A stretch of DNA of 26,554 nucleotides, from IMG/VR virus record IMGVR_UViG_3300025154_000349, positions 1-26,554 of that record; one strand, given 5' to 3'. Below the pieces are notes generated by a model that was not told the origin of the DNA, made no database searches, and saw only the letters and a program-made list of their open reading frames with translations. This document shows positions 2,135 to 24,504 of the stretch, one piece after another. Origin of the DNA: a virus. A program made the translations under genes and the position numbers. The first letter of the stretch is position 1, and each line of letters begins with the position of its first letter.

Positions 2135-3277
2135 CTATCCGATTACTACGACTCTGTATTGTGCTGCGGTTGGAGCTGTTGCAAACAGGAGTGTTATGGT
2201 ATTCACGCTGGTTATCTGGATATCACATTCCACAACATCATATGTCGAAGCGACCGTATGAAGCTGTACAATAACATCTGTTGAGTTCAAGTTGTGTGTT
2301 ACAACGATTGAAGTCGCAGAATTATCACCTACGTTAGCTGCATATTTCTTAGGCGGTGTGTAACCAAGACCTGCTACGATATGAGCATTATCAAGAGCGT
2401 CAAGGAAAGCTGCCTGTTTGGTAGCATCTGAGGTGTTATCAACATTCCCAAGACCTACATGAGCTTTTGTTAAACCAGTAGGTGTACCGGTGAAGGCTGG
2501 GTTTGCAGCATTGGCTTTAAGATCAAGAGCAGTCTGCTGAGCTGTAGATACTGGCTTTGCAGAGTCAGCTGTGTTATCAACGCTGCCTAGGCCAACCATT
2601 GCTTTGGTGATACCGGCTACAGTCCCTGTGAATGTAGGGTTGGCTAATGGTGCTTTAAGTCCAAGGGCTGTTGCCATCGTTGTGGAAAAGTTTGCATCGT
2701 CTCCTAATGCTGCGGCCAATTCGTTTAAAGTATCAAGTGCAGCAGGAGATGTGTCAACAAGAGCCGCAATCGCCGCACTGATATCAGCTGCGGAAGCTTT
2801 AGCATTCCATGTGGTTTTCTCAGCATCAGTTACAAAACGATTTGTTGCGTCCTGTGAGATTATTGCCGGAGGATGGTTTGCAGGATGCGTATAGTTGTTA
2901 GCATTAGCTGCGATACCATCTAACTTATTCTTTAATGCTGTAGTGAATGCTTGCTCTATAGCATTTAATTCTGCTATGTTTGCATGAGCGTGTTTCTTAG
3001 TGATAGCATCATTCACAGCTGCAGAGAGGTTGTTATCTTCAAGGATGCCAGCAGATGCATTGATTTCTGTTACCATTTGTGCGCCAGTATATGTGCTACC
3101 TTGATTCGTCATATCCGTCCATGCTGAGCCATTCCATACATAGGTCTTATGATCTGTGCTATTATGATATGGCTGTCCTTCTACCGGAGTTGCTGGTGCG
3201 CCGGCTAGTGTGTGGAAACGCATGTTTTGAACTTCGTTTTTACCCATATCTAATGGGACTAAAATTCTTCTTGCCAT
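2135..3277 (-). CDS. Phage tail-fibre-like protein with VGLGNVDNT repeats
   Basis: A 380-aa protein. The N-terminus (MARRILVPLDMGKNEVQNMRF) is the virion-attachment-type start seen in fibre proteins. At least two repeats near residues 210-285 contain the pattern KAxVGLGxVDNTxDxxK followed by an STAQQ-like linker, a classic phage tail-fibre repeat. An alanine-rich, probably coiled-coil region precedes them (about 90-205). The C-terminal 75 residues contain VTHNLNSTDVIVQ, related in pattern to VTHNLNRYPSVTV at the end of the neighbouring 263-aa protein, so the two share a small beta-rich terminal domain. Fibre assignment is firm from the repeats; the receptor is unknown. Confidence 0.8.
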   Translation of the reverse strand: MARRILVPLDMGKNEVQNMRFHTLAGAPATPVEGQPYHNSTDHKTYVWNGSAWTDMTNQGSTYTGAQMVTEINASAGILEDNNLSAAVNDAITKKHAHANIAELNAIEQAFTTALKNKLDGIAANANNYTHPANHPPAIISQDATNRFVTDAEKTTWNAKASAADISAAIAALVDTSPAALDTLNELAAALGDDANFSTTMATALGLKAPLANPTFTGTVAGITKAMVGLGSVDNTADSAKPVSTAQQTALDLKANAANPAFTGTPTGLTKAHVGLGNVDNTSDATKQAAFLDALDNAHIVAGLGYTPPKKYAANVGDNSATSIVVTHNLNSTDVIVQLHTVASTYDVVECDIQITSVNTITLLFATAPTAAQYRVVVIG

Positions 3278-3293
3278 TTAAATCACTCCTTTT

Positions 3294-4085
3294 TTAATTG
3301 AAGAATGCTCGCCCTGAGAAGGCGGCACTGAACTGTATCCTTACTACATCTAGTGAAAGGTAAGTTATCTCACCCATTACTACACTGTCACCACTATCTA
3401 CAACAGTTACACTAGGGTATCTGTTGAGATTGTGGGTAACTTGCCAGGTTGCTGAAGGAACTTGCTGGGCAAATATAAACGGTTCGATATCTCTACCGTC
3501 TCGTCCAGGATCGCCCTTTTCACCCCTAGGACCTTGTTCTCCAGGTGGTCCTGCAACTGGTATCAATTGTGATTCGATATGGGGGCCTTCACAAACCTCA
3601 ATGACTATCTCTGTAGTAGAGCATTCTGTTTCGGCGATATCATCGCAATAATACTCAGCTTCGCAAGTATCGCCGTCTGCGAAAAAACCCTGCCCACCTA
3701 CGGAAAATTCTGAAGGTATTTGCATTGTGTAATCCCTCTGCATAAGGAAAAGGGCTTGAGCATACTCCTTCTGAAGTATAGGTGCTGACATAGCTCCTTC
3801 TTCGTCTACTACATAAAATTTATAAGCTGCTCCAACGAGCACAACTGATCTTATATATTTATCTATGAAGAAGTCGTAGTTTGGGTATACATGTGCTCCT
3901 TCAACAGGAGGTTCTGAGACTGGGTAGGCTTCTTCTGTAAAATCTGAAAATGCTGGGAAACAGGAATTCATGGCTGTGTTGATATCATCGATAACTGCGT
4001 CGAGGTAAGGCAACATAGCAGTATACATCAGCTGTTCACCAGCTAACTTGCTATTGACTCCTATTACTATATTATTTAAAAGCAT
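3294..4085 (-). CDS. Virion protein joining a helical N-terminus, a collagen-like segment and a beta C-terminus
   Basis: A 263-aa protein. Residues 1-130 are helical and unlike the rest (MLLNNIVIGVNSKLAGEQLM...), resembling head-tail connector-associated proteins. A Cys-rich acidic stretch follows (about 138-170), then a short Gly-X-Y collagen-like segment (about 180-200, GPPGEQGPRGEKGDPGRDG). The C-terminal beta domain contains WQVTHNLNRYPSVTVVDS. This modular build suggests a head fibre or connector-anchored fibre. It follows the phosphoesterase gene by 9 nt. Domain boundaries are seen directly; the virion location is inferred. Confidence 0.65.
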   Translation of the reverse strand: MLLNNIVIGVNSKLAGEQLMYTAMLPYLDAVIDDINTAMNSCFPAFSDFTEEAYPVSEPPVEGAHVYPNYDFFIDKYIRSVVLVGAAYKFYVVDEEGAMSAPILQKEYAQALFLMQRDYTMQIPSEFSVGGQGFFADGDTCEAEYYCDDIAETECSTTEIVIEVCEGPHIESQLIPVAGPPGEQGPRGEKGDPGRDGRDIEPFIFAQQVPSATWQVTHNLNRYPSVTVVDSGDSVVMGEITYLSLDVVRIQFSAAFSGRAFFN

Positions 4086-4094
4086 ATTGTCACC

Positions 4095-4859
4095 TCATAA
4101 AACAATATTCATCTTTCTGGTATACCCGTCGAGGATAAGCTTGTTAGGTTTTATTGCAGTTGGTTTGTACATCTTTCGTTCTGCGTAATCTTCGTTTTCC
4201 ACCCAGCTTGTTCCTACAAGGATTGCAACATGTTTGGTATCTAGTGTTTTGTGTGCAGCATTATAGGTAGGTTTATTGATGAACTTCCCTATGGGTTGAT
4301 GGTTATGCCCTGAGATGATTCCGTCTAGATTCTCATAGGCACTTATAAAAGCTTCAACCTTTGCTACATTGCTTGTGCCGTGGGTCCCGCAGATAACATA
4401 GTTGACATACTGATCTGCGTGATAGTCATATTTTCCAAACGATAATTTAAGGAAACCTAGGCCGCCAAGATACCTACCCTCAAGACCAAGCTGTTCCATA
4501 ATCTCTTGGGTAATGTGTAGGTCTACTTCTTTAGCTGAGCGATCTTCATGGTTACCGTCCGCTGCTGCTACAATTCTGCCTTCTGCAGCTAGGGGCTTTA
4601 ACATTTCAATCATTTCTTTTTTCTGTACGCTGGGCGTAATTACTTCTTGATATACATTGGTCTTGCTACTTTTTACGCCATTATTGATTAAGTCACCTAC
4701 AAGGAAAAAATGTGCATGTTTATCTTTTAAGAGAAATTTGATATAATCTTTAAACAGTGGGGTATTGCTTCCTCGGGCTCCATGATGCACATCTACTATG
4801 GGATGTAAGTCTACATAATCAAGTGAACGGCTAAGCTTCACTTCGATTAGCGAGCTCAA
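4095..4859 (-). CDS. Calcineurin-like metallophosphoesterase
   Basis: A 254-aa protein with the ordered metallophosphoesterase motifs: VDVHHG (D-x-H) near residue 24, GDLINNG near 56, GNHED near 102, CGTHG near 155 and SGHNHQP near 183. Together these form the two-metal site of the family, which hydrolyses phosphodiester or phosphomonoester bonds. It is encoded within the late structural operon, directly after a hairpin terminator that follows the capsid block. Its substrate is unknown; phage members of this family may act on DNA ends, RNA or nucleotides. All metal-binding motifs look intact, so it should be active. A second, unrelated-length member lies in the early arm at 17095-17625. Confidence 0.88.
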   Translation of the reverse strand: MSSLIEVKLSRSLDYVDLHPIVDVHHGARGSNTPLFKDYIKFLLKDKHAHFFLVGDLINNGVKSSKTNVYQEVITPSVQKKEMIEMLKPLAAEGRIVAAADGNHEDRSAKEVDLHITQEIMEQLGLEGRYLGGLGFLKLSFGKYDYHADQYVNYVICGTHGTSNVAKVEAFISAYENLDGIISGHNHQPIGKFINKPTYNAAHKTLDTKHVAILVGTSWVENEDYAERKMYKPTAIKPNKLILDGYTRKMNIVL

Positions 4860-18905: not shown

Positions 18906-19295
18906 ATGTCAAAAATCAAAACACTGGGAGACGCAATGGTTCTCACCAGCACAGTCAAGCTCGAGGACATCATGCAGCTTGCGAAGTACAATCCAAAAGC
19001 CTTGGTTATAGTGGAGCCTAAAACTGAGGACGAAATCTTCAGAATAACACCAAGCTTCAAACCATCCTTCGGAAAAGCCGGCGCAGCATTTAACACTGCA
19101 AACGCAGATGGTTTTGCTGAAATGACGATCCTACTTCCTGCAGGTTTATCCAACGAAGAGAAACTGACTTGGATCAAGGAATGCTATGGCGTAGGCTTAC
19201 TCGAACTGAATAAGATCGAGACAACTATCGCAAGTGCAGTCGCCGAACTGAACGGTAAGTTCGACACCATGACCGAAAGCATCACCATCGGCTAA
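18906..19295 (+). CDS. 129-aa protein leading the ubiquitin-like locus, unknown
   Basis: Starts after AGAGGAGAG. Composition is mixed alpha/beta: KTLGDAMVLTSTVKLEDIMQL, then ALVIVEPKTEDEIFRITPSF with a strand, and a helical end (ELNKIETTIASAVAELNGKF). The C-terminus is GKFDTMTESITIG, ending in a single Gly. It has its own strong promoter element and is separated from the Ubl gene by a hairpin. Placement suggests a partner or target of the pathway, but this is inference only; no family is recognised. Confidence 0.6.
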   Translation: MSKIKTLGDAMVLTSTVKLEDIMQLAKYNPKALVIVEPKTEDEIFRITPSFKPSFGKAGAAFNTANADGFAEMTILLPAGLSNEEKLTWIKECYGVGLLELNKIETTIASAVAELNGKFDTMTESITIG

Positions 19296-19314
19296 ATCCC
19301 ATCAAAGCCCGGAC

Positions 19315-19364
19315 AAGGTTGCGAATCAATACAGGGCGTTGATAATACAATCGTAACCTTTTAA
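19315..19364 (+). terminator. Long stem-loop between the 129-aa gene and the Ubl gene
   Basis: AAGGTTGCGA (19315-19324) pairs with TCGTAACCTT (19351-19360), 10 bp with one G-U, and encloses ATCAA/TTGAT (19325-19329, 19339-19343). Four T (19359-19362) follow. It is probably a partial terminator or processing hairpin that separates expression of the flanking genes. Confidence 0.55.
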
Positions 19365-19393
19365 CTTTTCAACAAACCTGAGGAGGTTTACAC

Positions 19394-19621
19394 ATGATTT
19401 CAGTAACAGTTGGTAGTGGACTGAGCAGAAAAGCATATTCAGTTGATCCAGAAAGAACTCTCAAGTCAGTCCTTGATGAGCATCAGATCAATTATTCAGT
19501 AGCACCGGTTCATCTTGACGGTTCGTCAGTTTCATCCGCAGAACTTAACAAAACATTCACGGAAATGGGAGTCGTAGATAGCTGCTACCTTATCGCTGTC
19601 GTAAAGAGCGACAACGCCTAA
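19394..19621 (+). CDS. Ubiquitin-like (beta-grasp) small protein candidate
   Basis: A 75-aa protein, start after GAGGAGG. Predicted order is beta-beta-alpha-beta-beta: ISVTVGSG and SRKAYSV strands, helix LKSVLDEHQ, then APVHLDG, the VSSAELNKTFTEMG segment, and the final strand CYLIAVV. That is the ThiS/MoaD/ubiquitin fold order at the right length. It ends VVKSDNA without a C-terminal GG, so either conjugation uses another terminus, processing is needed, or it acts without conjugation. The call rests on fold order plus adjacency to E2-, JAMM- and E1-like genes. Hairpin terminators on both sides suggest it is made in excess. Confidence 0.65.
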   Translation: MISVTVGSGLSRKAYSVDPERTLKSVLDEHQINYSVAPVHLDGSSVSSAELNKTFTEMGVVDSCYLIAVVKSDNA

Positions 19622-19632
19622 TCTCTCAACAA

Positions 19633-19667
19633 GGGGCATCATACAGAGTATGGTGTCCTTTTTTTTT
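19633..19667 (+). terminator. Intrinsic terminator after the Ubl gene
   Basis: GGGGCATCATAC, loop AGA, GTATGGTGTCC, then nine T. It would stop most transcripts before the E2-like gene, so the enzymes would be made at lower levels than the Ubl. Confidence 0.88.
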
Positions 19668-19690
19668 AAACTTTAGAAAGGAGTAAAGTT

Positions 19691-21295
19691 ATGTTTGTAA
19701 ATGGTTCATATACTTGCGAGGGTTATAGCCTAGACCCACGCTTAGAAAAACTCAAAAGAGATTTATCAGAATGGCTAGATGTAGGTACACAATCTTTTAA
19801 ATATCGCAGCAGTACTAAAGAATCTAGCAGATGTGTCATAGACAATCCGGCACGAGTAATGATGAGCTTAATTAATTATTACAGAAACGACCTAGTTGGT
19901 GTAGATAACACAATAACTATCGAACATAATGTAGTAGAATACCCACCTAGTCACACAACTTACCAATATGATTGGCAAATAAATCCACCTGTAGGCTTTA
20001 CACCAAACAGACGTTCAAGCCCAACTAACAATGTTATTAAATTTGTACATGTCGCTAAATCATCAATTGGCATGTTTCAAAAATTTGATGAATATTTTGC
20101 AGATGAAAAGCATATCTCAACCGGGCTACAAACCAGCTCTCAACATCGTATCCGTGTATATAAACCCCTGGCGTGGGGAAGTCATGCCCTCCTTGTGGTG
20201 ACTAACACCTATACCTGGGAGTTATACAGGCAAGTGGTTGCTCTTCTTCCTTTAATATTCCCTGACTTACTAGGAGATAAATTCGAAGAAGTCAAAGAAA
20301 TATTTGAAGCTTATGGTGCATCTGACTTTGGTAAATGGATTGATGGTATCAATACATGGATTACTTCCAGAGACTTAGTATCCTATTATAAAAGAGCATT
20401 ATTAATCAAATGCTTTCAAAGCACTCAGGAGCGTAGGATCAGAATATACACAGATAGTGAAGTTGCTGCTCAACGTAAAATAAGAGAATATGAAGACACA
20501 CTCCGAGGACTTCAAAACAACTTACGAGACCTTCAATATACCCTTCTTGGCATCAGGGCTACTCCAGCACAAGACAACGAAGAAGTTGTAAATTACATCT
20601 TAAATCATAAACATATTACAGCTGCAGAGAAAATCGACTCAATAATTATACTAGATATTGAAACCCCTCTAGAATACTGGGACGATGAACCTTTAAATAT
20701 GTACTTTAAAAATCCACAATCAAGTTTAAACACAATACCCCAACTTGGTTGGATATTCAAAAAGATATTTAAAGAACGAGTGTTAAAAATACAAACTCAT
20801 ACCCGAGTTCATATCGATCTCTCTACCAATAAAATCAACGCAGAGTCTTGGTCACATGTTGAAACTTCCCAATTTGACTATAATGCTATAATGCAACCAC
20901 ATTTAATGCGCTATAATTGCTGGGGAAATAACAGAATTAACATTGAAAGACTATTAACTTCAGGTGATTACATCGAAGCAATTGAACAAATTCTTGCAGC
21001 CTGTAAAAATTTAAATTTCGTAGACTCAACTGTTGTAAGTCATCTTATAAGCACAATAAACAACACATATCTTGTAAACCCATTTGTCTTTGATCCGGCC
21101 TCAAAAGAATGGTACAATAAAGAACAACTTTATACACTATATAAACAAGAAAAAGAGGAGAAGAAAGCACATGAAGCCAATCAAGCTAACCCCGGAACTT
21201 CAAGCCCAACTAATGAAACAGTTCGAAGAGTTCCTGATAACGGAGAGAATGCAGTCGGACAAACTGAAGTTCGAAACGACCCTGACCTCTACTAA
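19691..21295 (+). CDS. E2-like (UBC-fold) protein of the Ubl pathway
   Basis: A 534-aa protein, start after AAAGGAG. Residues 1-245 are not recognised; 250-292 are a likely coiled coil (QRKIREYEDTLRGLQNNLRD). Residues about 315-460 resemble prokaryotic E2/UBC domains: a strand-rich part (VLKIQTHTRVHIDL) is followed by QPHLMRYNCWGNN (402-414), with an HPN-like QPH and candidate catalytic Cys410, then ERLLTSGDYIEAIEQILAA as the C-terminal helix. The order of Ubl, E2, JAMM and E1 genes supports a conjugation role. The last 42 codons are low complexity and overlap the JAMM gene in another frame. Confidence 0.65.
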   Translation: MFVNGSYTCEGYSLDPRLEKLKRDLSEWLDVGTQSFKYRSSTKESSRCVIDNPARVMMSLINYYRNDLVGVDNTITIEHNVVEYPPSHTTYQYDWQINPPVGFTPNRRSSPTNNVIKFVHVAKSSIGMFQKFDEYFADEKHISTGLQTSSQHRIRVYKPLAWGSHALLVVTNTYTWELYRQVVALLPLIFPDLLGDKFEEVKEIFEAYGASDFGKWIDGINTWITSRDLVSYYKRALLIKCFQSTQERRIRIYTDSEVAAQRKIREYEDTLRGLQNNLRDLQYTLLGIRATPAQDNEEVVNYILNHKHITAAEKIDSIIILDIETPLEYWDDEPLNMYFKNPQSSLNTIPQLGWIFKKIFKERVLKIQTHTRVHIDLSTNKINAESWSHVETSQFDYNAIMQPHLMRYNCWGNNRINIERLLTSGDYIEAIEQILAACKNLNFVDSTVVSHLISTINNTYLVNPFVFDPASKEWYNKEQLYTLYKQEKEEKKAHEANQANPGTSSPTNETVRRVPDNGENAVGQTEVRNDPDLY

Positions 21296-21791
21296 AGACA
21301 CACAAATCATACGACCACTAATTAAATTTACTGCTACAGCTTATCTGAAGATGACAAATCTGATGATGACCACAGCTACAGAAATTGGTTGGCATGGTAC
21401 AATCATCCGAGAGGATAGTGTCTACACCGTCACAGATATCTTCATGTATCCACAAATTGTTACAGCAGCAACCGTAGAAACTGATGAGGCTGACTATGTA
21501 AAATGGTGTATGGAACTTCCTGATGATGTTATTAATTCTCTACGCTTTCACGGACATAGCCACGTTAATATGGCTGTAAATCCATCCGGAATAGACAATA
21601 CATTTTACGGTAAACTCTTACAACAAATCCCTGAGGATGATTTCTATATCTTTATGATTAGGAATAAATTAGGTTCTGTAAACGTATGGTTATATGACCT
21701 AGCTACTAATTGTTTATATGACAGTGCAGATATTGATATTGAGGTTGAACTAGATGCCGAGACATCTTTAGCTGAATGGACCAGAGATTAA
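21171..21791 (+). CDS. JAMM/JAB metalloprotease (deubiquitinase-like)
   Basis: A 206-aa protein as terminated here. The start at 21171 follows GAGGAG; a longer upstream frame without ribosome site is rejected. It has the full JAMM zinc site: Glu71 in TEIGWHGTI and H129-S-H131-x7-S139-x2-D142 in HSHVNMAVNPSGID. The family hydrolyses isopeptide or peptide bonds at Ubl C-termini, so it may mature the Ubl or remove it from targets. The N-terminus overlaps the E2-like gene by 125 nt. An in-frame TAA at 21789 ends it, yet the frame stays open for 90 more codons. Confidence 0.85.
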   Translation: MKPIKLTPELQAQLMKQFEEFLITERMQSDKLKFETTLTSTKDTQIIRPLIKFTATAYLKMTNLMMTTATEIGWHGTIIREDSVYTVTDIFMYPQIVTAATVETDEADYVKWCMELPDDVINSLRFHGHSHVNMAVNPSGIDNTFYGKLLQQIPEDDFYIFMIRNKLGSVNVWLYDLATNCLYDSADIDIEVELDAETSLAEWTRD

Positions 21792-22064
21792 AAAACAGAG
21801 TTTATCACCTTACCTCCGGTAAAAACATTTGGAGCAACTCAACCAAACACCGGAACAACTACACTAACTGATCCTCCAAAGATAAAAAGAACAGGAACAG
21901 AAACGGGAGAATACCGTTATAACAAAAAAACAAAAAGAGATGAATGGCATCCCTACACCACTAAAGAAATGCTCGACAAAGAAATAGAGGCTCTTAACAA
22001 TCAAATGAAAGGGTACACCGAGGAAGAATACGAAGCTCATTATGGAAGGAGATGCTATACATGA
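21792..22064 (+). pseudogene. In-frame C-terminal extension of the JAMM protein behind a TAA
   Basis: After the TAA at 21789-21791 the same frame runs on for 90 codons (KTEFITLPPVKTFG... to ...EEEYEAHYGRRCYT) and stops in an ATGA overlap with the E1 gene. There is no start codon or ribosome site near its beginning; the first ATG in frame comes about 58 codons in. It has a Pro/Thr linker, a basic part (RYNKKTKRDEWHPYT) and a helix (KEMLDKEIEALNNQM). A nonsense mutation, stop readthrough or a sequencing error would each explain it. Confidence 0.65.
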
Positions 22065-22729
22065 ATCTAAATAAACATATGGATTACTTCAATCCATTAA
22101 CTGATTTAAAAGGTACAGTGCACATCATCGGCTGTGGAGCAATAGGCTCTACAGTAGCTGAAATGCTTACACGCATGGGTATCCCGGATATTCGCTTATA
22201 TGACTTTGACATGGTTACACCACACAATATTGCAAATCAAATGTTTACCAACAATCAAATTCATACAGCAAAAACAAAGTCACTGAAAGATTTATTACTT
22301 TCAATCAATCCGGAAGTTCAAATCAAAACTCATGATGAAGGTTATACAAACGAAGGACTATCAGGCTATATATTCTTATGTGTAGATAACATCGACTTAA
22401 GACGAAAAATTGCAGAAGACAACAAATTTAACCCTTACATCAAAGCGATGTTTGACTTCCGCATGAGATTAACAGATGCTCAACACTACGGAGCTGACTG
22501 GGCTAACAAAGAATCTATCAAAGCATTCATAGCATCTATGCAATTCTCCCATGAAGAAGCAGTAGAAGCTACCCCGGTATCAGCTTGCGGAACAACCTTA
22601 AACATTATAACCACAGTACGACTTATTGTCTCAGCAGGACTGAGCAACTTTATAAACTTTGTGAAAGGAAAACCTATTAAGAAGCTAATTCTGGTAGACT
22701 CAGAAAACTTCTTTATAGAAAGTTACTAA
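22061..22729 (+). CDS. E1/ThiF-like Ubl-activating enzyme
   Basis: A 222-aa protein. The ATG at 22061 is chosen: AAGGAG at 22045-22050 is 10 nt away, against 1 nt for the ATG at 22052. HIIGCGAIGS (21-30) is the Rossmann-type ATP loop. RLYDFDMV (45-52) gives the acidic Mg site, followed by NIANQ (56-60), K71/K73 and CVDNIDLRR (107-115). TPVSACGTT (171-179) holds Cys176, a candidate catalytic cysteine. Family members adenylate the C-terminus of ThiS, MoaD or ubiquitin-like proteins. The length is near that of single-domain ThiF/MoeB, without a separate Cys domain. Overlaps the JAMM extension by ATGA. Confidence 0.85.
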   Translation: MNLNKHMDYFNPLTDLKGTVHIIGCGAIGSTVAEMLTRMGIPDIRLYDFDMVTPHNIANQMFTNNQIHTAKTKSLKDLLLSINPEVQIKTHDEGYTNEGLSGYIFLCVDNIDLRRKIAEDNKFNPYIKAMFDFRMRLTDAQHYGADWANKESIKAFIASMQFSHEEAVEATPVSACGTTLNIITTVRLIVSAGLSNFINFVKGKPIKKLILVDSENFFIESY

Positions 22730-23118
22730 TCTTACCGCACGATTAAACCAATACCCTCTTTCAGTGTTACTAAAAGTTCGACTAGACTAGAAACACATCT
22801 ACCAGGTTCGGTAAGAATCAACAAATTACGACGGATTAATCTAATGAAAATTAGGTTGCTTCCAGTATTACTGAAAGTACACATAGAGTAGAATGAAATA
22901 GCCCATCCAGGATCAAGAAGGCATCCGGTGGTCCCAACCAAAGCGGCGTTAATCCAACTTCCATAAAATCCAACCCGCGTCGCCTCCGCTGCAGACCCCC
23001 AATCTACTCAGCTTACCAGATGAGCCAACCAGCTAACAACGTCAAACCAACATCTACAAACACTTGAGCTAAAGGCCGGCCGTCTTCCCATATACACCTT
23101 AAGGTCGTAATCATTAAC
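22730..23118 (+). ncRNA. Structured non-coding region upstream of the reverse transcriptase
   Basis: About 390 nt without a plus-strand gene, beginning right at the E1 stop. Structures seen: an outer stem TCTTACCG (22730-22737) with CGGTAAGA (22809-22816); hairpin CTTTCAGT-GTT-ACTAAAAG (22758-22776); AATCTAAT-GAAA-ATTAGGTT with a GNRA tetraloop (22838-22857); and hairpin CTTCCAGT-ATT-ACTGAAAG (22859-22877). The second half (22900-23100) is less AT-rich, with GGCCGGCC at 23073. The region is a candidate RT template or cofactor RNA. Ends and strand are not defined; the GAAA loop favours plus, two hairpins pair better as minus RNA. Confidence 0.6.
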
Positions 23119-23131
23119 GAAAGGAGAAGTT

Positions 23132-24283
23132 ATGTATTTCACATTTAAAACATCAAACAAAGAATTTGAACAATTAACCTTTGAAGACTTCTTCAGAAAT
23201 TTTGGAAGAATAATCGAAAGAAAACAATCATCAAAAAGCAGTAACTATTACAACACCAAAACTCTATTTATTACAGACCAAAACCTTTTAAGAAATGCTT
23301 TTGAAAAACATAAATTTACTAATAACATAATCGATATAGCTGGAGCAATAGAACGTATGAATGAGGCTTTACCTAATCCGTTAGAATCTTATTATGAAAC
23401 CTTTCAAATTCCTAAACATTCTGGAGGTATGCGAGAAATCAACGCACCAACAGGACCATTAAAGGTAATGCAATATAAGATGCTTACGTTACTTCAGGAT
23501 AAGTTTATGTCACTACCACACAATTCAGCTTATGCATATGTCCCCGGAAGATCGACAAAAGATGCACTAGAAGTTCATCAGAAAAATAATTCTAAATGGT
23601 TTCTGCATCTAGATATCAAAGACTTCTTCCCAAGTTGTAACCAAGCGTTTGTACAGCAACAGCTTAAACAAATATTTCCTTACGGTTATTTAACTAACCA
23701 AGCATTTGACGGAATTATGGAGCTCTTAAAAGTATGTTTCTTAAACGATGCCCTACCTCAAGGAACTCCGGTTTCACCATTTCTCACAAACTTAATAATG
23801 CTTCCTATAGATGATGTATTATCTAAACACTTTAAAGATTTTGCAGGACAAAACTTCGTATATACTCGTTATGCAGATGATATTATTCTATCTTGTAAAT
23901 ATGCATTTGATTATTTGCTGGTAGAAAACACAGTAGATATTTTATTTACAACACTTAACACTCCTTTTAAACTGAAGAGAACAAAAACTCATTATGGTTC
24001 TTCAGCAGGACGCAATTGGAATTTAGGGCTTATGCTCAACAAAGACAACAATATTACTATCGGCTACAAAAAGAAAGAACGTATCCGAGCTACACTTCAT
24101 GCTTTCATAATGGATTTGAAAAATGGAAATCATTGGAGTATAATAAGGATACAGGAGATGCAAGGTTTATTCAGTTACTACAGTAAGATTGAACCCGAGT
24201 TTGTTAAGGATTTGTTTGCTAAATATTCAACAAAATTCGAGTGCAATGTTAAGCAACTGCTTAAACAAGAACTGAAAAGATAA
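23132..24283 (+). CDS. Reverse transcriptase of uncertain class
   Basis: A 383-aa RNA-directed DNA polymerase, start after AAAGGAG. Motifs in order: FQIPKHSGGMREINAP (91-106), AYAYVPGRSTKDALEVH (133-149), LHLDIKDFFPS with catalytic Asp161, LPQGTPVSPFLTNLIM (208-223), YTRYADDIILS with Asp249/Asp250, and NWNLGLMLN (295-303). The C-terminal about 65 residues are a helical thumb-like region. QG-x3-SP matches retrons and group II RTs and differs from the SQ form of diversity-generating RTs; the retron VTG motif is replaced by NLG. No maturase or endonuclease domain is visible. It lies between two related structured regions, so use of a dedicated RNA is likely. Confidence 0.92.
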   Translation: MYFTFKTSNKEFEQLTFEDFFRNFGRIIERKQSSKSSNYYNTKTLFITDQNLLRNAFEKHKFTNNIIDIAGAIERMNEALPNPLESYYETFQIPKHSGGMREINAPTGPLKVMQYKMLTLLQDKFMSLPHNSAYAYVPGRSTKDALEVHQKNNSKWFLHLDIKDFFPSCNQAFVQQQLKQIFPYGYLTNQAFDGIMELLKVCFLNDALPQGTPVSPFLTNLIMLPIDDVLSKHFKDFAGQNFVYTRYADDIILSCKYAFDYLLVENTVDILFTTLNTPFKLKRTKTHYGSSAGRNWNLGLMLNKDNNITIGYKKKERIRATLHAFIMDLKNGNHWSIIRIQEMQGLFSYYSKIEPEFVKDLFAKYSTKFECNVKQLLKQELKR

Positions 24284-24504
24284 TCAACAATAGCCATTTC
24301 CCGTATGAGGCTAAACTGAAACAAAGGACGTATGCGCCCCAAACTTCAGACTGTCCCTCTTAGGAGCTCTCAGTCTTACTGGAAGTACAGAAATGTTTAT
24401 AACCATCTTATTGACCTGAGATGGCAGAGACAATGCAAGCATTCTCTCAGCCATCCCTGGACAATAAGATTTATGGATTAGTATTGTTGATAAAAGGAGT
24501 GAGG
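24284..24504 (+). ncRNA. Structured non-coding region downstream of the reverse transcriptase
   Basis: Contains TAGCC/GGCTA (24291-24313), a 32-nt repeat of the upstream region (24360-24391) with hairpin CTCTCAGT-CTT-ACTGGAAG (24369-24387), and a long hairpin at 24405-24470. That hairpin stacks ATCTTATTG/CAATAAGAT, GATGGC/GCCATC, AGAGA/TCTCT and ATGC/GCAT around an AA loop, 24 base pairs in 66 nt. It overlaps a potential ATG at 24421 of the next gene that has no ribosome site, which argues that this stretch is RNA or DNA structure and not protein. Confidence 0.6.

Follow-up and report, generated by a model that had tools for sequence, protein, structure and literature searches.

Reverse transcriptases (RTs) that work with a non-coding RNA (ncRNA) include the defence-associated RTs (DRTs) DRT2, DRT3 and DRT9; diversity-generating retroelements combine an RT with an RNA template in phages. 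Retrons, to which the locus described here is closest, typically combine an RT with a template ncRNA and with a toxic effector, and protect bacteria (PMC12548924). In the standard retron layout msr-msd lies upstream of the RT, and among 16 validated retrons VTG opens region Y in 14 and NAxxH marks region X in 14 (PMC6868368). We analyzed a locus in a virus record of 26,554 bases, IMGVR_UViG_3300025154_000349 (the window, to which all coordinates refer unless another locus is named), in which a gene for a 383-amino-acid (aa) RT (23132..24283, + strand) has related ncRNA elements on both sides. The carrier is a gut-type bacterial virus. This RT locus with its multi-element flanks is real, recurrent and unusual, and is a variant of the retron kind that falls outside the described retron types with which we compared it. 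We call the RT retron-like because it is kin to retron RTs but has both VTG and NAxxH replaced.

The RT reading frame is intact, with no internal stop. In a 38-row alignment D161, D249 and D250 were invariant and Y247 and A248 nearly so, in line with an earlier note on this DNA that had pointed to Asp161 and to YADD at 247-250. The same note had seen NLG at the place of the retron VTG, and this NLG, part of NWNLG, indeed aligned with the VTG of the Ec83 and Ec78 RTs; L298 and G299 were invariant in the 38 rows. The region X mark is also changed, the family having DAxxxH aligned with DNAKIH of Ec83. The protein matched Pfam RVT_1 (3.1e-22), and in a profile search of the PDB retron Ec83 came first (1.7e-39), followed by Ec78, Ec67 and Ec86; group II intron RTs (3e-15 at best) and DRTs (2e-12 at best) were weaker, a comparison that speaks to the RT kinds among the listed matches. 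This was also true for an AlphaFold model of the RT (pLDDT 89.8), for which the top 12 entries by Z in a structure comparison were all retron RTs (Eco7/Ec78, Z 25.3), the nearest non-retron structure was a group II RT (Z 20.3), and the nearest Foldseek matches were the Eco7/Ec78 and Ec83 RTs (3e-18 at best); these structural matches scarcely cover the first ~50 residues. In a 68-row tree, 36 family rows and L159 formed a single clade with 99/99 support, separate from the other references, with a warning from the tree program of long branches among some rows, including L008. Profile, fold and tree thus all place the RT among the retron RTs, in a clade of its own.

Model scores located it further. 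The best PADLOC model was RT_II-A (190 bits; I-A, 152 bits), but reference RTs (L131, L161-L163) scored 347-425 bits on their own I-A or II-A models, so that the window RT is unlike members of these types. NCBIfam retron_St85_RT gave 205 bits, under its cut-off of 235; among the NCBIfam DRT models, Drt2 reached 45 bits (cut-off 390), Drt3a 40 (cut-off 200) and no other the reporting limit. Calling the RT 'unclassified', as had been done earlier, is therefore apt in that it fits none of the described retron types compared, and too strong in the wide sense, since its nearest relatives by sequence, fold and tree are retron RTs.

The RT is flanked by 402 nucleotides (nt) on the left (22730-23131) and about 215 nt on the right (24284-24498, an end that depends on the uncertain start codon of the following gene); the earlier note had given about 390 and 220 nt. 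These flanks hold no supported gene, as had been proposed. Two open reading frames of at least 60 aa fall within them, neither with a Pfam match: one of 69 aa on the minus strand, which had no match in PHROG either, and a 5' extension of the next gene that retains that gene's weak PHROG match. The flanks are instead filled by three ncRNA elements with inverted ends, A and B upstream of the RT and C downstream. Each contains CAGTNTTACTNNAAGTNC (at 22762, 22863 and 24371), which occurs nowhere else in the window and was absent from all of 100 shuffles. Thus, of the two homologous regions first proposed, the relatedness holds and the number becomes three.

Element B (22825..23111, + strand) begins with the repeat a1 (22825-22832, ATTACGAC) and ends with a2 (23104-23111, GTCGTAAT). 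Between them lie the hairpins hp1 (about 22838-22857) and hp2 (22858-22878) and a payload (about 22900-23103) without a long hairpin. The element stops eight bases before GAAAGGAG, which is likely the ribosome-binding site of the RT. Element C (24283..24491, + strand) starts on the final base of the RT stop codon and ends immediately 5' of AAAAGGAG; its a1 (24283-24292, ATCAACAATA) and a2 (24482-24491, TATTGTTGAT) enclose hp2 (about 24367-24386) and a payload hairpin (24405-24470) with arms of 32 nt. Element A (22730..22816, + strand), whose first base directly follows the stop codon of a ThiF gene, is a short copy in which the end repeats TCTTACCG and CGGTAAGA enclose an hp2-like hairpin and the payload is absent; its fold is not above chance (z −1.0).

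The flanks had been described as full of stems. By folding energy this is borne out on the right (z −3.9; 0 of 200 shuffles as stable) but not on the left (z −1.2; 16 of 100 shuffles equally stable), so the case for the left flank rests on comparison with relatives. An Rfam scan of the window and eight loci found no element at gathering score, only tRNAs and a transfer-messenger RNA (tmRNA). Loose-threshold Rfam matches in the window were rejected as far under gathering score (the highest-scoring, to a miRNA family, fell opposite the C hairpin on the minus strand, with 31.9 bits against a cut-off of 80), as was one for L127/L094, taken as chance. Between 22500 and 24700, neither sigma-70 promoters (7 vs. 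6.7 in shuffles) nor terminators (1 vs. 1.3) were in excess, and the left-flank DNA had no match in 50,697 phage records.

For the comparison with relatives, a first scan gave nine RTs that have NWNLGxMLNKDN in common. A profile scan then confirmed 379 stretches at a loose limit, some of which may be other RTs, and 80 were kept; bacterial and archaeal assemblies supplied 38 more relatives, most of them with a Clostridia label or that of a family within this class. A motif rule read 96 distinct RTs and returned none from 16 of 129 records. Searching by rule for inverted ends near the RT yielded 82 distinct candidate elements, of which 74 were aligned. Their common plan, retron-like and bounded by the end repeats a1 and a2, runs from a G through the hairpins hp1 and hp2 to a private payload. 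The hp2 stem was paired in 95.5% of cells, compared with 74.4% in shuffled and at most 47.7% in slid alignments, and its covariation was 0.724 vs. 0.275 in the control; the number of pair types alone was no higher than in shuffles (21 vs. 20.6).

We built a covariance model, R1, of the handle (the G, hp1 and hp2 region). It found 236 matches at E ≤1 across 112 sources, 235 of them on the RT strand. Element statistics use the 201 matches at E up to about 0.01 (85 loci), and 129 of these are handles outside the repeat-selected training set, on which a1/a2 pairing could be tested. Among these independent handles, the a1/a2 score was at least 9 in 52.7% (11.7% with swapped partners) and at least 11 in 27.9% (1.9% swapped). 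The hp1 stem was present in 56% of the 201 matches and 8% of shuffled ones. In the window, element B matched R1 at 25.4 bits (E 3.7e-4), being itself a member of the training set.

Elements lie on both sides of the RT in 49 of the 76 RT loci with matches, upstream only in 19 and downstream only in 8, so that RNA elements on the two flanks of the gene, which the earlier note had seen in the window, recur in the family. Twenty of these loci have one element, 25 have two, 24 have three and seven have four or more; L030 has eight handles, and in L127 seven stand in tandem with two subtypes alternating. Counts from nine large bacterial assemblies are lower bounds, 150 candidates having been scored in each. 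R1 matches occurred in 26 of 29 whole records, and in virus records the elements stay near the RT, the furthest being about 12 kb off. A GenBank human faecal phage, MT835544, has an RT within the family clade (NWCLG) and one handle upstream of it. Conservation and covariation of the flanks, the check that the note had asked of a covariance model, were thus found in relatives; its other point of failure, a described class with matching ncRNA layout, was not what emerged, the placement being retron-like and the layout different.

Elements of one genome differ in their payloads. By blastn (E 1e-3), sister handles of one locus matched in 127 of 211 pairs and sister payloads in 1 of 202. An earlier measure that allowed free end gaps (within-genome payloads 0.52 vs. 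0.36 shuffled; 23 of 201 pairs beyond the 99th percentile of shuffles) was dropped as unreliable in favor of blastn. Long hairpins (score ≥12) are biased by position, occurring in 21 of 95 downstream flanks, 2 of 93 upstream flanks and 1 of 95 shuffled ones, and the window agrees, upstream B having none and downstream C one. An extreme payload hairpin, of 28 bp and z about −13, stands at L013 7440.

Among close relatives we saw no fast payload change: payloads were 0.96-1.0 identical in L026/L031, L096/L097 and L109/L110. At about 77% RT identity (L014/L015, L020/L092), handles were 82-92% and payloads 53-68% kept, and L099/L124 showed the reverse (handle 0.69, payload 0.83). These figures come from 15 locus pairs, with handles pairable in six.

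Set beside the I-A/II-A retrons (Ec78/Eco7, Ec83, St85 group), whose RTs are nearest by profile and fold, the locus is alike in having ncRNA closed by complementary ends, with hairpins and a template region. It differs in its several elements on both sides of the RT, in the changed VTG and NAxxH, and in that no retron effector was found. The retrons of Pf phage OR863250 and Vibrio inovirus PQ189325 likewise have a phage-carried RT but, unlike the window RT, each is adjoined by a gene that its annotation or a note names as part of a retron effector. DRT2, DRT3 and DRT9, which like this RT go with an ncRNA, are much weaker sequence matches (9e-8, 2e-8 and 2e-12), and diversity-generating retroelements differ both in fold (best Z 18.2 vs. 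25.3 for retrons) and in that the window-family payloads have no match elsewhere in their own locus. We found no description of such ncRNA arrays in the literature searched on retron layout, phage retrons, ncRNA arrays, RT-linked RNA motifs, anti-retron decoys and ubiquitin-like phage loci, a set of partly accessible sources mostly from outside subscription journals.

On balance, we favor a phage-borne system akin to retrons, with a single RT that would act on several separate ncRNAs and yield different multicopy single-stranded DNAs (msDNAs). Direct support comes from the RT kinship, the common handle, a1/a2 pairing, hp2 covariation, copies on both sides, arrays and dissimilar payloads; we infer that the RT uses all copies, primes at the G and takes the payload as template. 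Each ncRNA would be closed by its own a1/a2 repeats and bound by the RT through the handle (G, hp1 and hp2); priming would occur at the G next to a1, the payload would be reverse transcribed from the a2 side, and the phage product would be a set of different msDNAs rather than one. The layout is well supported, and the proposed biochemistry, one RT copying several ncRNAs, is likely. No constant effector gene was found, genes occurring only downstream recurring in at most 16 of 96 loci, and for this reason the RT-msDNA particles themselves may be the active product, for example as decoys or blockers of host defence proteins. A decoy or blocker role, which we hold weakly, would fit the multiplicity of payloads, and counter-defence in general is a tentative suggestion. 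More specifically, and just as doubtfully, the locus might be a viral retroelement with one RT and an array of 2-8 ncRNAs that have a common handle and private payloads of two classes, open (mostly upstream) and long-hairpin (mostly downstream), the mixed msDNAs forming a multi-target counter-defence kit functionally tied to a ubiquitin-like gene cassette. In this group of viruses a single RT seems to be maintained together with a varied set of RNAs and without a fixed effector. Were the RT to copy every one of them, it would be a natural factory of several msDNAs at once and a compact enzyme serving many templates, and viral uses of msDNA would become testable.

Several observations weigh against a single RT serving several msDNA templates. 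Two retron marks, VTG and NAxxH, are changed in the RT. Element C matched R1 only partially (15.7 bits, E 0.41), and R1 matches were absent from 18 of 96 RT loci and from 7 of 13 further RT-bearing loci. One of the negative loci, L011, has three elements visible by eye, which indicates that R1 misses divergent elements. Conservation of the G partly reflects how the search was set up: the G stood beside a1 in 41 of 53 elements that had not been used for training, and R1 itself was made from rows selected for G there. Payload RNAs were no more stable than random windows (median z −0.80 vs. −0.68, n=199), which speaks against a uniform msd hairpin. Finally, the link to a cassette of E1 and JAB genes may point to another role.

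That cassette is the main rival lead on function. The run of genes at 18906-22729, for proteins of 129, 75 and 534 aa, a JAB-like protein and a ThiF E1, has the look of a ubiquitin-like cassette of phages. Directly upstream of the RT lies the ThiF/E1-like gene (22052..22729, + strand), the only one of the run with profile support. Two usual neighbors of the RT precede it, a JAB-like protein (21084..21791, + strand) and a 534-aa protein (19691..21295, + strand), both without a profile match; the former we take to be JAB-like from its HGHSHVNMAVNPSGID stretch. PRTRC kinship of the cassette was considered and set aside, the ThiF match being weak (23.6 bits against a cut-off of 144.75) and the other cassette proteins unmatched. 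In an unlikely alternative, the cassette is the effector arm of a retron-like system whose msDNAs are sensors, E1/JAB modifying proteins of rival phages or the host on perturbation. Across 96 loci, a 467-534-aa protein lies upstream on the RT strand in 74, a JAB-like protein in 71 and a ThiF E1 in 66, and of 80 ThiF relatives kept from 123 confirmed, 75 have the RT downstream, and in two of the remaining five the contig breaks off there. The ThiF query was taken from RT-bearing loci, however, so the link may reflect common phage descent; moreover, 30 of the 96 RT loci show no ThiF (some are cut), profile support is for ThiF alone, and L199, L210 and L232 have ThiF without the RT. Handles are absent from L199 and L232, and L210 has one match, which makes a weak difference between ThiF loci that have the RT and those that lack it, since only 6 of the 13 RT-bearing loci matched R1. 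Within the effector search of 96 loci, the upstream cassette remains a candidate effector.

It is rather improbable that the elements are regulatory or RT-binding RNAs and not DNA templates. B and C do end just 5' of AAGGAG-type stretches, possible ribosome-binding sites, upstream payloads lack long hairpins, and payloads generally are not unusually stable. Array members up to about 12 kb from the RT fit this poorly; the RT is of retron kind, and the layout of end repeats, G and hairpins agrees with that of retrons.

Retron DNA can be used as a donor in engineering, and a common handle with differing payloads resembles a library; payloads might accordingly be donor DNA with which genes of the phage or its host are recombined or diversified. 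We consider this very improbable: none of 199 payloads matched elsewhere in its own locus (E 1e-3; phage loci were covered, host genomes were not searched with payloads), the L030 array matched only its own upstream handle in its 98.8-kb record, the L127 array matched nothing in 50,697 phage records, and payloads are 96-100% kept between close relatives. Least probable of all is that an ordinary retron with one msr-msd has had it duplicated and that the duplicates are decaying, short element A perhaps being such a relic, since end repeats and hp2 pairing are retained across copies and both-side layouts occur in 49 of 76 loci.

Other genes recur near the RT less often. One cluster of acidic proteins lies on either side of the RT in 26 of 96 loci, and PADLOC matched one of 10 neighbor proteins, an SNF2-type helicase. 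An RNase H cluster is present in 10 of 96 loci, once between array elements. This would fit the dependence of retron termination on host RNase H1 described in PMC8989520, but is far from general. The case between array elements is an RNase HI gene at L030 7777-8244. The stretch that separates the RT of L033 from its downstream array elements (2446-4340) holds a tmRNA and 12 tRNA matches; a connection of phage tRNAs with retron evasion is reported in PMC11555353.

The alternating handles of L127 (394-2620) are of TTTTGTAAT and ATTTGCAAT kinds, and close pairs of downstream elements also occur in L094, L027, L042 and L045. The L112 contig is 358,930 bases long; such very long contigs suggest integrated copies. 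Staphylococcus jumbo phages (L160 889-3220, L164 521-2825) carry a retron-like RT on its own long branch with a hypothetical gene directly downstream, and in the RT of L007 (4488-5858) about 77 aa are inserted close to where the RT domain begins.
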